NCBI RefSeq assembly: GCF_015169395.1
Contig: NZ_CP063458.1
Coordinates: 6,386,001 to 6,450,000 of the forward strand
Length of the DNA stretch: 64,000 nt
Direction: 5' to 3'
Source of the DNA: Humisphaera borealis
GTDB taxonomy: Bacteria > Planctomycetota > Phycisphaerae > Tepidisphaerales > Tepidisphaeraceae
Shown: one piece after another, positions 1 through 36,294 of the stretch
Numbering within the stretch: position 1 is the first letter of the stretch
Layout of the letters: each line of letters begins with the position of its first letter
Made by a program: the position numbers and the translations under genes
Notes under the pieces: generated by a model
Database searches by the model: none
What the model was told of the DNA's origin: nothing
Seen by the model: only the letters and a program-made list of their open reading frames with translations

Positions 1-1245
1 CGTGGTGACATCCCGTACGATCAGGCCGGTCACGCTGGACCCGATGACCGACGAGATCGTCACCGTTCCCGTAGCGGCAGCATTGGTGCCTGTACCGGCG
101 TTCTCAAGTCGCAGCGCACCTGTGATGTTGATGTCGCTCGTGTTAACCGTGACGCTCCCGCCGTTGCTGCTGATGATGCTCTGAATTGTCAGGTTGTTTG
201 TGCCCGTAATCCCGCCGGTGAGGACGGGATTGGCCGATGCGCCGAGATTGTTGATGGTGAGTACGCCAGTCGTGCCGGAGGCAACGATGATCGGCCGACT
301 GAGCGTAAGGGTGGAGAGGCGCAGGACTGCAGTCGAACTGCCGGAAGTCGCGCCCAGGGTGACGCTGCCGGTCGATCCGAACGCGCTGGCGTTCCGCGCC
401 AAAACGTTGCCGGCGCGGATGAAGGTGTCGCCGGTGTAGGTGTTGATCGAGGTCGCGGTGAAGTCGAGCGACCCTGCACCCAGCTTGGTAATTCCCACGC
501 CCGCATCGCCGCCGACGATGCCGGCAATGACGAGGGTGCTGGCATTGTTGGTCGTAATCGAGCGGCTGGCAGCACCGAGTGAGACGGCGTTGTTGAAAGT
601 GATACTGCCGGTATTGGTGGCGTCGCCGAAAGCCACATCGCCACCGATCGTGATTCCGCCGGCGAACTTTCCCGAGAGGTCGCGTCCGTTCGTGCTGGTG
701 GAGCGGACCGTGCCGCCATTGAGGGTCAGCGCGCCGCCGCTGCCCAGCGCGTTGACGCCGCCGACCGCAACCGTGCCGGCGTTCAGCGTGAATCCGCCGG
801 GGTACAGATTGCCGTTGGACGAAATCCACGTTCCGGCGCCGTTCTTGATGAATCCTGTGCCTGCGGCAGTCGAAATCGACTGGGCGGCGAAGTCGAGCGT
901 CGAACCCGCGCCCACGTCCAGTGTCCTGACCAGTCCGCCGGTGCTGTAGGTTCCTGCGGCAGTCAGGGTGACCGTCGCACCGGCGTCCACCGTGATATCG
1001 CCAACGGGAGTGTTGGTGACATTCGTAATCGACGAATTGGCGGTGAAGCGGGCGGCGGAGTTGTTGGTCCAACCGGCATCAAACGGACCGGCCGCAGTCG
1101 CGCCCCAATTCACCGCCGTCCAGGTGGCGTTGGTGCCATTCGTGTTCCAGAACAGTTGGGCTCGTGCCTCAACCGCGCCGCAACCCATCATCGCAGCGAC
1201 AAGCAACAATCGACCACGTCGGCAGCCTAGCCACTTTGAATACAT
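1..1245 (-). CDS. Autotransporter-associated beta-strand-repeat secreted protein (3' end outside window)
   Basis: The first 415 codons are in the window and the gene continues past the left edge. The ATG at 1245 follows GAGG at close spacing and opens MYSKWLGCRRGRLLLVAAMM, a signal peptide that probably ends near VEARA. The mature part is almost entirely Gly/Ala/Thr/Asn/Ser-rich short strands, with segments such as FTLNAGTVAVGGVNALGSGG, LTLNGGTVRSTSTNGRD and ITKLGAGSLDFTATSINTYT. These match the autotransporter-associated beta-strand (PATR-type) repeat, which folds as a right-handed beta-helix. In planctomycetes such proteins are usually secreted or surface bound, and many end in a PEP-CTERM-like anchor; that end is not visible. 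Exact function unknown. Confidence 0.82.
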   Translation of the reverse strand, partial: MYSKWLGCRRGRLLLVAAMMGCGAVEARAQLFWNTNGTNATWTAVNWGATAAGPFDAGWTNNSAARFTANSSITNVTNTPVGDITVDAGATVTLTAAGTYSTGGLVRTLDVGAGSTLDFAAQSISTAAGTGFIKNGAGTWISSNGNLYPGGFTLNAGTVAVGGVNALGSGGALTLNGGTVRSTSTNGRDLSGKFAGGITIGGDVAFGDATNTGSITFNNAVSLGAASRSITTNNASTLVIAGIVGGDAGVGITKLGAGSLDFTATSINTYTGDTFIRAGNVLARNASAFGSTGSVTLGATSGSSTAVLRLSTLTLSRPIIVASGTTGVLTINNLGASANPVLTGGITGTNNLTIQSIISSNGGSVTVNTSDINITGALRLENAGTGTNAAATGTVTISSVIGSSVTGLIVRDVTT

Positions 1246-1933
1246 CGACCTCGCAACTTTTGACACATCGGAACCTGTACAACCGGACATCAGGCACTTC
1301 TCCCACAGAAGAAAAGACGTTACTCCAAATCGATATGGCACCGAGGCGCCAGAGCGAAAGCTTCACTGCCTGATCGCGCAGCCATCGCACCACCTTAGGA
1401 GTGTTGTTGCCGCGCTAATAGGTTTCGTGATGCGGGCAGATGCAGGCTCAACGAGTGCAGATGCCGCTTTCAAAGCTCGCCTGTCAATCAGCAAGTGGCG
1501 TGCCTACCTGGACGCGATCGCCGCACACACCCCCGTAGTTCTCGGGCGCCGCGGCCGGCAGCTTTCCTGCATCCCCAAGGATGCCGCCCAGAAGTCGCCG
1601 GGCTGATCACGTACCTAGATGCTCTTAGCATTAATCCGCGCTGCCGGCGCCGCCAACCAACGAGTCTCGGCGAGCCTCCCGGCATACGACTGTCGCCCAG
1701 AGGACGCCCGGCCCTCCGCACTTTGCGCCAATTAACACCTACGTGCCGAAGGCTTCCGTCCCCGCGCCCTCCCCTAGGACCATCCCTATCAACACATTCT
1801 TGTGAAATCGCATGAGCCTGGTCGGCGTCGGTAGGGCAGATGCGGATGTTGTTGCGGTCGATGATGACCGCCCGCCGCTATCGGACGTTTCGCCCGGCGT
1901 GTCCTGGCCGTGCGGATTTGTGAGGGATACGGC
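1246..1933. other. 688-nt gap between divergent genes
   Basis: No open frame here looks like a real protein. Promoters for the two divergent genes must lie in this gap, but no clear -35/-10 pair stands out. A small hairpin ATGCT-AAG-AGCAT lies near 1620-1632 on the minus strand and resembles a short piece of the 23S rRNA 3' region; this was judged insufficient for an RNA call. Confidence 0.4.

Positions 1934-33090: not shown

Positions 33091-33094
<4 letters not shown>
31919..33094 (+). CDS. oppD: Peptide ABC transporter ATP-binding protein (OppD-like)
   Basis: The ATG at 31919 follows AAGAGG; an in-frame TTG one codon earlier is ignored. The 391-residue ATPase has Walker [17 protein letters not shown]-loop [17 protein letters not shown], signature [15 protein letters not shown], Walker [14 protein letters not shown] and the switch histidine in [16 protein letters not shown]. 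The C-terminal oligopeptide-binding extension contains [14 protein letters not shown] and [17 protein letters not shown], a Cys cluster that binds an iron-sulfur or metal centre in some family members. It ends with a further ~75 residues ([19 protein letters not shown]). Expected to power one or both permease pairs upstream. Confidence 0.95.
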
Positions 33095-34182
<1,088 letters not shown>

Positions 34183-34199: not shown

Positions 34200-34313
34200 G
34201 GAGCCGCACGAAGTGTACTCACGGAGTAAGCGGGAAGACCCTGAACCGTCAAGGTTGCCGGTTACTGGCACGGATCCCGCTTACTCCGTGAGTACACTTC
34301 GTGCGCGGCTCCT
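34200..34313. repeat. Inverted repeat, ggagccgcacg/cggagtaagcggg family
   Basis: The left arm 34200-34234 and right arm 34276-34313 are almost identical to the arms at 8464-8556; the 41-base spacer is unrelated. It lies just after oppF and may end the transporter transcript. Confidence 0.92.
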
Positions 34314-34354: not shown

Positions 34355-34383
34355 CCAGGTCCTTCGGCGTACCTCAGGATGAC
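34355..34383. repeat. Single copy of the GGTCCTTCGGxGTACCTCAGGATGAC word
   Basis: This 29-nt word matches the inner arms of the nested element at 38141-38277 with one change (C for A). Only one arm is present, so it looks like half of a decayed element. Confidence 0.75.
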
Positions 34384-34439: not shown

Positions 34440-35537
34440 TCAGTCTCTGAACTTCGCGTGGCACGACTTGCAGGTCTGCGTGACCACTTTGAACTGCTTG
34501 TCCAGATCGGCTGGTGCCACGCCGGGTCCCTGGGTCAGCATCTCTTCCAGCGCGGTCGCGTCTTTGTTGGCCTCCTGCATCAGTTGCAGATACGCTGGCG
34601 GACGGGCGGTGGTGTCTTTGTCGCCGATCAGAAACCGGTAGTAGTCGGCCAGCTTGCCGGCTTCGGCGGCGGGGGCGAGCGCGGGGTGATCGTTCGGCAC
34701 CTTCCAACCGGATTTCTGGATCAGCTTCAGGTTCTCCGTCGCGACGTCGATCTCGACCATCGTCCGGGTCGTCCCCTGCGGGCGGACGACTTCGGGGAAG
34801 TTGCCGTCGATCGCATCGAGAATCGCCGGCATGACCTTGGTGGCATTGGCGGTGCAGGCGTACAGGCCTTTGTAATCTGGTGCGGTGCCGGAGACTTTCA
34901 TGCGTTCGACCGCATCGACCGGCGACATCCACCCCAGCGTCACCACCGCCGACCCGAGCGCCCCGGCGCTGCGGTGCTTGCCGTGATGACAGTGCATGTA
35001 GAGCGGCTTGGGCAGATCGCGAACCGCCCGGGCCAGTTCGAGCTTGCGCTTCTCGTCGAACCCGGCGTAGGTGATCGGCAGGTGGATGTACTTCAGGCCG
35101 TACTGGGTCGCCTTGTCGAGTTCGGGTTCCGATCCGTCGACAGAGACGATCGTCTTGATGCCCATCTTCTGGAGGGTCGCGAACCCTTCGTCACCCTCGG
35201 GGACCGAGCCCGAATAGACGTTGGGCGCGTAGGCAACGACGTTGTGCAGGCCGGGGTAGTCGAGTGGCCTGTTGTCGGCGAGCGTGGGAACGCCCGCCGC
35301 CCCCGTGAAACCCGCCGGCTTGCCGGCGGCAACGGAGGGTTTGGTATCCGCCGTTGCGGTGTGTGCCTCGACAGGGTTCGTCGCAGGCGAGCTTGCAACA
35401 TTCTGCGCCGGGGCCTGCGCTGGGCCGGACGGAGGCGTCGGCCCGCCACACGCACCGATGCCGAGCGACGCGACCGCCGCGACCGCGACGCGCCAGAAGC
35501 TGGCAGGGCGACGGCCGATGTTCCCAAAACTCTTCAT
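34440..35537 (-). CDS. Lipoprotein fusing a protein-tyrosine-phosphatase-like domain to a cytochrome c'-type heme site
   Basis: 365 residues from the ATG at 35537 (a start 15 bases upstream is possible). A lipoprotein signal peptide ends VASLGIGACGG. After a Pro/Ala/Thr linker comes a phosphatase-like domain: APNVYSGSVPEGDEGFATLQ, GIKTIVSVDGSEPELDKATQ, YIHLPI, then the P-loop HCHHGKHRSAG with nucleophile Cys183 and Arg189 (CX5R). The C-terminal ~150 residues look helical and end TCKSCHAKFRD, where CxxCH at 356-360 followed by a KFR tail is the covalent heme site of cytochrome c'. Both parts should face the periplasm. The domain pairing suggests redox or gas sensing linked to phosphate chemistry, but this is inference. 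No partner gene is adjacent. Confidence 0.85.
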   Translation of the reverse strand: MKSFGNIGRRPASFWRVAVAAVASLGIGACGGPTPPSGPAQAPAQNVASSPATNPVEAHTATADTKPSVAAGKPAGFTGAAGVPTLADNRPLDYPGLHNVVAYAPNVYSGSVPEGDEGFATLQKMGIKTIVSVDGSEPELDKATQYGLKYIHLPITYAGFDEKRKLELARAVRDLPKPLYMHCHHGKHRSAGALGSAVVTLGWMSPVDAVERMKVSGTAPDYKGLYACTANATKVMPAILDAIDGNFPEVVRPQGTTRTMVEIDVATENLKLIQKSGWKVPNDHPALAPAAEAGKLADYYRFLIGDKDTTARPPAYLQLMQEANKDATALEEMLTQGPGVAPADLDKQFKVVTQTCKSCHAKFRD

Positions 35538-35936
35538 GTGCACGTTCCCCATCGGTTCTGATCCGGGCGACCATCCCTACGACGATCCGCGGAGCAGACG
35601 GTAACGACCTTACGGTTCCCGATGCAAGGCAATCGCGCGATGTCTGCTCAATCGGACATGGCGAGGCGCGAAAGCTCTGTTCGCAAACAGCACTTGCAAA
35701 TTTTCGCCATAGACTTAACATATACCGTACATATGCACGGACGTCGGTACGGTCCTGGCAAGACGTGCCGTCGATCCTTCTCCGTGCGCCGGCAGGCGGG
35801 TGTGATCCGTTGGCCTGGCGTGAACTCCACGGGGACGCATGAAAACTGGCCGGACTCGGGCGATCGCCGTCGATTGCGCCGGGTGTTCTTCATTTGAGCC
35901 CGCGCACGCCGTGGCCGGGCCGCGAGGAGGTGTTCC

Positions 35937-36294
35937 TGGGTTCGTTCGGCGAATCCGTCTTGGGTTCGTTCGGCGGATCGGTCCTGGGTTCGTTCGGCGG
36001 ACGCTTCTTGGGTTCGTTCGGCGAAGTCGACAACGCAGACGCGGAAAGCCGTCCAGAGAACCTCCTTGCGGTTTCGCCAAAGCAGCGACGTCGGTCTGTC
36101 GCATTGACCCGGGCATTCTCGGGTTCGTTCGGCCAGATGGCGCAGGCCCGGGCGGGACGGCCGTACCACGACGATCTCGGGTTCGTTCGGCAGACAAGCC
36201 GACGGCGCAGCGTACTCGCGGAGCCTCGGGTCCCGCCGGTCTCGACTGGCGCGGGTTTGAGGGGTCCCGGGAGGATTCCTCGGGTTCGTTCGGC
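35937..36294. repeat. Seven copies of a GGGTTCGTTCGGC word, four in exact 24-nt phase
   Basis: tgggttcgttcggc starts at 35937, 35961, 35985 and 36009, an exact 24-nt period. Further copies of cgggttcgttcggc start at 36120, 36178 and 36281 with irregular spacing. Bases between copies are variable. On the other strand the word is GCCGAACGAACCC. Confidence 0.93.

Follow-up and report, generated by a model that had tools for sequence, protein, structure and literature searches.

A lipoprotein of Planctomycetota that joins a cysteine-phosphatase-type domain to a class II c-type cytochrome domain

The gene, its surroundings and its relatives

We analysed a 64,000-nucleotide window of the Humisphaera borealis genome (contig NZ_CP063458.1, positions 6,386,001 to 6,450,000), and positions are those of this window unless a locus is named. 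The gene under study is located on the minus strand, and its open reading frame runs from an ATG at 35537 to a stop codon at 34442-34440, encoding a protein of 365 amino acids. Another in-frame ATG, five codons upstream at 35552, is a possible start. The initial annotation had located the gene correctly and had given no strand. It had also assigned the P-loop HCHHGKHRSAG (Cys183, Arg189) and the C-terminus TCKSCHAKFRD to one lipoprotein with the signal ASLGIGAC, exactly as we read them in the translation. The features of the gene are summarized in Table 1. The lipobox IGAC with Cys30 marks the product as a bacterial lipoprotein. A simple, permissive pattern detected a lipobox-like site in 73 of 111 relatives, and the remainder mostly carry a hydrophobic export signal.

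Table 1 Positions of the lipoprotein gene, its encoded features and two split gene pairs.
Feature	Position	Strand	Description	Basis
Whole gene	34440..35537	-	365-aa lipoprotein, DSP/PTP-type domain and class II c-type cytochrome domain	translation, Pfam, homologues
Signal peptide	35448..35537	-	lipobox IGAC, lipidated Cys30	sequence
Linker	35268..35447	-	residues 31-90, Pro/Ala-rich, variable in the family	alignment
DSP/PTP-fold domain	34854..35261	-	residues about 93-228	AlphaFold and structure matches
Phosphate-binding loop	34965..34994	-	HCHHGKHRSA, residues 182-191, nucleophile Cys183, Arg189	family conservation
Asp134	35136..35138	-	in SVDG motif, nearly invariant (141/143)	family conservation
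Ala158	35064..35066	-	position of TpbA general acid Asp105	alignment, register counted by hand
YxGL motif	34863..34874	-	residues 222-225, between both domains	alignment
Four-helix heme domain	34443..34802	-	residues 246-365, PF01322 superfamily	AlphaFold of the domain alone, PDB matches
Met260	34758..34760	-	predicted distal heme ligand, invariant	143/143; model residue 15 = b562 Met7
Heme-attachment motif	34458..34472	-	CKSCH, residues 356-360, His360 proximal ligand	143/143
Split pair, locus L149	PTP about 911-1564, cytochrome frame to about 2079	+	PTP lipoprotein and cytochrome	
Split pair, locus L150	PTP 1416-2072, cytochrome 973-1443	-	PTP lipoprotein and cytochrome	

Pfam matched the protein to DSP-PTPase families (E 5e-5 to 7e-4) and to Cytochrom_C_2 (E 6e-5), both weakly and just under the curated cut-offs. 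No name for the whole protein was obtained above cut-off from NCBIfam or PADLOC. An AlphaFold model built from a 96-sequence alignment had a mean pLDDT of 96.6 and a pTM of 0.85.

The tail-to-tail neighbour of the gene is an oligopeptide ABC transporter gene (33091-34182, plus strand). Between the two lies a perfect inverted repeat of 31 bp around a 39-nt loop (34205-34305), which has about 30 copies scattered through the genome and might be MITE/REP-like or a bidirectional terminator. The motif GGTCCTTCGGMGTACCTCAGGATGAC (34358-34383) occurs 29 times in the genome at up to two mismatches and not at all in the reversed control, and its copies often form inverted pairs about 110 bp apart. A 24-bp tandem repeat of 3.7 copies (35937-36025) is situated in a 1.2-kb upstream stretch that has no clear coding gene. 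Rfam, promoter and terminator scans near the gene returned nothing useful. When the nearest upstream and downstream open reading frames of about 105 loci were compared using Pfam, no family recurred at more than three loci, a count based on home-made gene calling in GC-rich contigs that may miss reading frames; the gene therefore appears to be a loner. No NO-, CO-, sulfur- or arsenic-related genes were conserved near the relatives in the same survey (about 105 loci, Pfam). Apart from the fusion, the Humisphaera genome yielded a single PF01322 protein, a stand-alone class II cytochrome lipoprotein of 183 amino acids, encoded 34 kb from the fusion gene and 4.4 kb past the window end (G000:C1:6454382-6454534; L169:1156-1704).

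Full-length homologues with both active sites are encoded in a genome of the same genus (G001, 54% identity) and in one of the same family (G015, 37%). Among 392 sampled Planctomycetota genomes, a profile search matched 209, end-to-end in about 130 among the matches listed. A scan of 84,980 species yielded 425 encoded relatives; the best 80 of these 425 are complete or almost complete, and every one falls within, or clusters with, Planctomycetota. The oddly named MAGs that were checked are 60-94% identical to planctomycete members. Full-length members span many families of the phylum, and the two-domain pairing of this lipoprotein is conserved across Planctomycetota and is not a one-off. It is this family evidence, more than the weak Pfam matches, that shows the pairing to exceed chance. 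Most relatives come from metagenome-assembled genomes, as would suit an artefact in which a sequencing or assembly error joined two genes or produced a spurious reading frame. We rejected this explanation, whose probability is negligible: the Humisphaera gene is located in a single-contig genome of 7.19 Mb, and the same continuous architecture is present in other single-contig genomes (G388, G404 and G397 among them) and on RefSeq planctomycete plasmids.

Cys183, Gly186, Arg189, Tyr157, Met260, Cys356, Cys359 and His360 are invariant in the 143 full-length members aligned to one profile, and His188 and Arg364 are each kept in 142; as the set includes close relatives, these counts are of non-independent events. 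The P-loop Cys and Arg are kept in all 164 relatives when 21 partial sequences are added. Median pairwise identity in the non-redundant set is 58% for the PTP domain and 42% for the heme domain. The invariance of both active sites in the 143 members argues against decay of either domain.

The phosphatase-fold domain

A fold search with the AlphaFold model retrieved 50 PTP/DSP entries at Z 13.7-15.8, indicating a DSP/PTP fold. Over its first 170 residues the model resembles TpbA, DUSP23/VHZ, Siw14, AtPFA-DSP1 and archaeal PTPs (Z 14-16), and the best solved matches are TpbA (Z 15.8), DUSP23 (Z 15.8) and Siw14 (Z 15.7). The loop HCHHGKHR has the HCX5R form of the Cys-based PTP/DSP superfamily. 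The best Pfam phosphatase score was 24.2 bits against a cut-off of 27, and placement in the superfamily therefore rests on fold and motif. The initial annotation had set the protein apart on the ground that tyrosine phosphatases are normally cytoplasmic; this is a weak contrast, as the nearest solved relative, TpbA, is periplasmic (PMC4409338).

The Asp of the WPD/general-acid loop is absent from the Humisphaera protein, which has Ala158 at this position. Among the 143 relatives, the position is D in 76, N in 40, S in 16 and A in 4, the last including the Humisphaera protein. In TpbA, the general acid is Asp105 (PMC4409338). PFA-DSP1 is reported to be active without a protein general acid (PMC9038691). 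The residue following the loop Arg is Ser in 105 of 143 members and Gly in 36 (HCHHGKHRGPA type).

Members of the heme-linked clade are recognised by a His just before the P-loop Arg. The clade was delimited with FastTree, whose deep supports were modest (0.78 for the grouping of fused and PTP-only members). In Planctomycetota, exported DSPs that stand alone mostly have Asp in place of this His (GxDRTG) and are not adjacent to a heme protein. The PTP-only members of the clade also contain the YxGL motif; one of them (L151:1-1453, reverse strand; loop HCHHGKHRGG) carries an apparent second, cysteine-less PTP-like repeat after the first. The most divergent member, L129, has the loop TCETGRDR, in which Cys and Arg are still present.

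The Siw14 family has the loop HCxRGKHRT, and its His before Arg is reported to be important for catalysis (PMC10653929; His155 in PMC9038691). Fission yeast Siw14 hydrolyses pNPP, pyrophosphate, polyphosphate and inositol pyrophosphates (PMC10653929). Membership of the Siw14/PFA-DSP family was rejected, as the loop HCHHGKHR(S/G) shares GKHR and lacks both the Arg at the third X and the Thr after Arg. By analogy, a Siw14-like mechanism is nevertheless plausible for the domain, because GKHR is shared and PFA-DSP1 works without a protein general acid. We also rejected membership of the Blh/DUF442 sulfur transferases. Blh was matched by 41 of 96 members and TIGR01244 by 21 of 96, in every case far under the cut-off, and the CX5R loop of all 164 relatives differs from the six-residue CX4R loop, CRTGTR, of the DUF442 sulfurtransferases (PMC8533005).

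The PTP domain is likely to be an active phosphatase. The phosphatase-like function suggested initially thus stands as a prediction, with the qualification that the general-acid position is not conserved. That variable position, the minority clade with Gly after Arg and the lack of an obvious substrate partner would also suit a domain that binds phosphate or phosphopeptides without turnover, on a protein that acts as a tethered class II cytochrome electron shuttle. We consider such a binding module improbable, since Cys183 and Arg189 are invariant in full-length and partial members, even in L129, whereas pseudophosphatases usually lose Cys or Arg, and Siw14-type enzymes are active without a protein general acid (PMC9038691).

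The heme domain

In the AlphaFold model, the C-terminal region forms four helices (residues 255-275, 289-304, 314-335 and 342-363; pLDDT mostly > 95), and the domain folded alone again gave four helices (pLDDT 95.5). This is the four-helix bundle expected by the initial annotation, which had proposed modelling the region as a check. The closest PDB matches were Kusta0087 (Z 12.7), cytochromes c' (Z 12.6, Shewanella among them) and many cytochromes cb562 (Z about 12); such values are close to what unrelated helical bundles may attain, and part of the weight is therefore carried by the CxxCHxx(Y/F)R ending and the profile hits. Less than one Z unit lies between the b562 rows and the c' rows, too little to tell the two apart, and the top rank of Kusta0087 is a tie. 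A profile of the domain matched cytochromes c' and b562. Its matches to designer PPR proteins were discarded as helix-repeat noise.

The CxxCH on the last helix, present in 143 of 143 members and followed by Arg364, is the arrangement of class II c-type cytochromes. PF01322 scored the protein at 24.5 bits against a cut-off of 26.5, and at 26.8 when the frame was scored in the genome; 85 of 96 relatives matched it at E 0.01. The host genome encodes ResB and CcsA, the System II machinery for heme attachment in the exported compartment, and we infer that heme is covalently attached at the CxxCH. Together with the AlphaFold model, these genes support the earlier description of a CX5R phosphatase-type domain fused to a C-terminal heme bundle of the class II (c'-superfamily) type.

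More than 30 b562 rows aligned model residues 9-119 with chain residues 1-106. A gap-free alignment of helices A and D would place model residue 15 (Met260) on b562 residue 7 and model residue 115 (His360) on residue 102; an alignment to b562 by sequence only is shifted by three residues relative to this structural register. Met7 and His102 are the two known heme ligands of b562. The separate cytochrome at locus L149 also has a Met at the position equivalent to Met260. Because the invariant Met260 lies on Met7 and His360 on His102, the likeliest heme is a Met/His six-coordinate one of the c556/b562 electron-transfer type, rather than an open c' site that binds NO or CO. Strict cytochromes c' are five-coordinate with an open distal site, and vary at the distal position (Leu, Phe, Tyr or Met). 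The c' of R. molischianum has a Met close to its sixth site and is still five-coordinate, which means that Met by itself is no proof of ligation.

These results weaken the NO/CO binding ascribed to the domain at the outset, and regulation of the phosphatase by gas is not supported. A five-coordinate c' domain that switches a periplasmic phosphatase on sensing NO or CO would agree with the PF01322 match, with the c' structures among the best folds and with the R. molischianum precedent, and the fused phosphatase would be its natural output. We judge this sensor quite unlikely in view of the 143 of 143 conservation and b562 superposition of Met260, of His360 on His102, and of the neighbourhoods, where NO- and CO-related genes are not conserved.

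Linkage of the domains, proposed function and known systems

The distances of the PTP and heme domains co-vary across the relatives (Spearman 0.71), as expected under joint inheritance. In genomes G041 and G168 the protein is split: the gene for an exported protein of the PTP clade is directly followed by that for a class II cytochrome, which has a signal sequence of its own and is likewise exported (Table 1). The separate cytochromes of L149 and L150 were recognised by Pfam (E 6e-5 and 1e-3) and by profile comparison (E 9e-8 and 2e-6). Two related genomes encode a triple fusion of glutathione peroxidase, PTP and class II cytochrome (L020:826-2361 and L022:913-2400, both plus strand), in one open reading frame with the peroxidase domain in front (E values of 8e-41 and 2e-39 for glutathione peroxidase); it is a redox clue for the family. 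Two further fusions were each seen in one genome, a PTP-cytochrome pair behind a Na+ nucleoside transporter (L131:1415-3772, plus strand) and the diverged pair with the TCETGRDR loop behind a Na+/Ca2+ exchanger (L129:2482-4473, minus strand). The pTM of the Humisphaera model is higher than expected for freely linked domains, suggesting that the two domains may be packed together.

Starting from the export signal, both folds, the invariant active sites, the fusion and the two-gene coupling, which the computations demonstrate, we tentatively propose that the protein acts as a heme-coupled cysteine phosphatase, anchored in the envelope and with an activity that depends on the heme redox state (probability about 0.45). 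The lipoprotein would be exported and tethered through Cys30 on a flexible linker. In the HCHHGKHR loop of its DSP-fold domain, a phosphoryl group would be bound and then cleaved via a Cys183-phosphate intermediate. Candidate substrates, by conjecture, are a periplasmic phosphoprotein or a phosphoanhydride (pyrophosphate-like) compound, because the loop chemistry is closest to that of TpbA and of the Siw14/PFA-DSP kind. The covalent heme, with His360 and probably Met260 as ligands, would pass one electron to or from periplasmic partners, the direction of flow being a guess. The redox state of the heme might set phosphatase activity through tight packing of the domains, or might do so by keeping the catalytic thiol reduced. 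The invariant active sites, the pTM of the model, the fold matches to active Cys-phosphatases, the GKHR loop, the CX5R loop length, the His that sets the heme-linked clade apart from stand-alone DSPs, the co-varying domain distances, the split pairs, the triple fusion and ResB/CcsA favour this proposal. The variable general acid, Gly after Arg in about a quarter of members, the absence of a conserved partner gene (about 105 loci) and the matches to sulfur-transferase models count against it.

Some of the same evidence would fit a different chemistry, in which Cys183 binds an oxyanion or sulfur species (thiosulfate, persulfide or arsenate) for redox chemistry and the heme relays single electrons to the periplasmic respiratory chain. 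As an electron carrier, a Met/His heme suits a redox reaction better than a sensor, and the glutathione peroxidase fusion, the missing general acid and the absence of Ser/Thr after Arg from some members agree with such a chemistry. Related DUF442 PTP-fold domains are sulfur transferases (PMC5823870, PMC8533005), in line with the Blh and TIGR01244 matches, and arsenate is reduced in vitro by Cdc25 enzymes of the rhodanese fold, whose loop is likewise HCX5R (PMC10135228). However, the CX5R loop, the low sulfur-transferase scores, the better fold and sequence matches to known-active Cys-phosphatases and the lack of conserved sulfur or arsenic genes nearby make this reading, the main alternative, somewhat unlikely. 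A further reading is unlikely as well: the protein might represent an undescribed class of redox enzyme, with the CX5R cysteine and the Met/His heme as one active unit in the envelope that couples PTP-loop oxyanion chemistry (phosphoryl, arsenate or sulfur) to single-electron transfer.

Both halves belong to known superfamilies; what is new is the phylum-wide domain architecture. In the open-access literature, we found no published description of a PTP and cytochrome c combination. To our knowledge, no link between cysteine-phosphatase chemistry and c-type heme has been reported. RefSeq plasmid records name the gene 'dual specificity protein phosphatase' or 'hypothetical protein', and annotation pipelines thus hide the heme half of a protein whose architecture is kept, with invariant active sites, by about a third of the sampled Planctomycetota genomes. 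Should the heme control the phosphatase, the protein would connect respiratory redox state directly with extracytoplasmic dephosphorylation. Electron exchange between the loop cysteine and the heme, if this is what takes place, would represent new enzyme chemistry.

Among known systems, TpbA of Pseudomonas aeruginosa, a periplasmic dual-specificity phosphatase (PDB 4r0s, 2m3v), is the best solved sequence match (E 4e-9 with the family profile) as well as the best fold match, and is likewise exported with an HCX5R loop. It differs in having no heme domain, in its general acid Asp105 and in its loop, HCKHGNNRT (PMC4409338). The Siw14/PFA-DSP inositol pyrophosphate phosphatases (PDB 6byf, 7mom) share the fold (Z about 15), the GKHR half-loop including the His before Arg, and the absence of a strict protein general acid, but are eukaryotic; their loop Arg is His in the Humisphaera family and their Thr is Ser or Gly. 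The Blh/DUF442 proteins resemble it in their PTP-like fold and through weak profile matches, and differ in their six-residue loop and in being fused to a metallo-beta-lactamase dioxygenase, not to a cytochrome. The heme half resembles class II c-type cytochromes (c', c556; PF01322) in its CxxCHxx(Y/F)R on the last helix of a four-helix bundle, and b562 in the Met260/His360 pair. All class II cytochromes known to us are stand-alone carriers or gas binders, whereas the bundle here forms the C-terminal half of a lipoprotein with a phosphatase fold. Its nearest structure, Kusta0087 of the Kusta0087/Kusta0088 complex from the anammox planctomycete Kuenenia (PDB 6r6m-6r6o), aligns over 103 residues at 2.6 A, tied with c' and cb562 chains; sequence identity is 11%, and the solved complex has no phosphatase domain.
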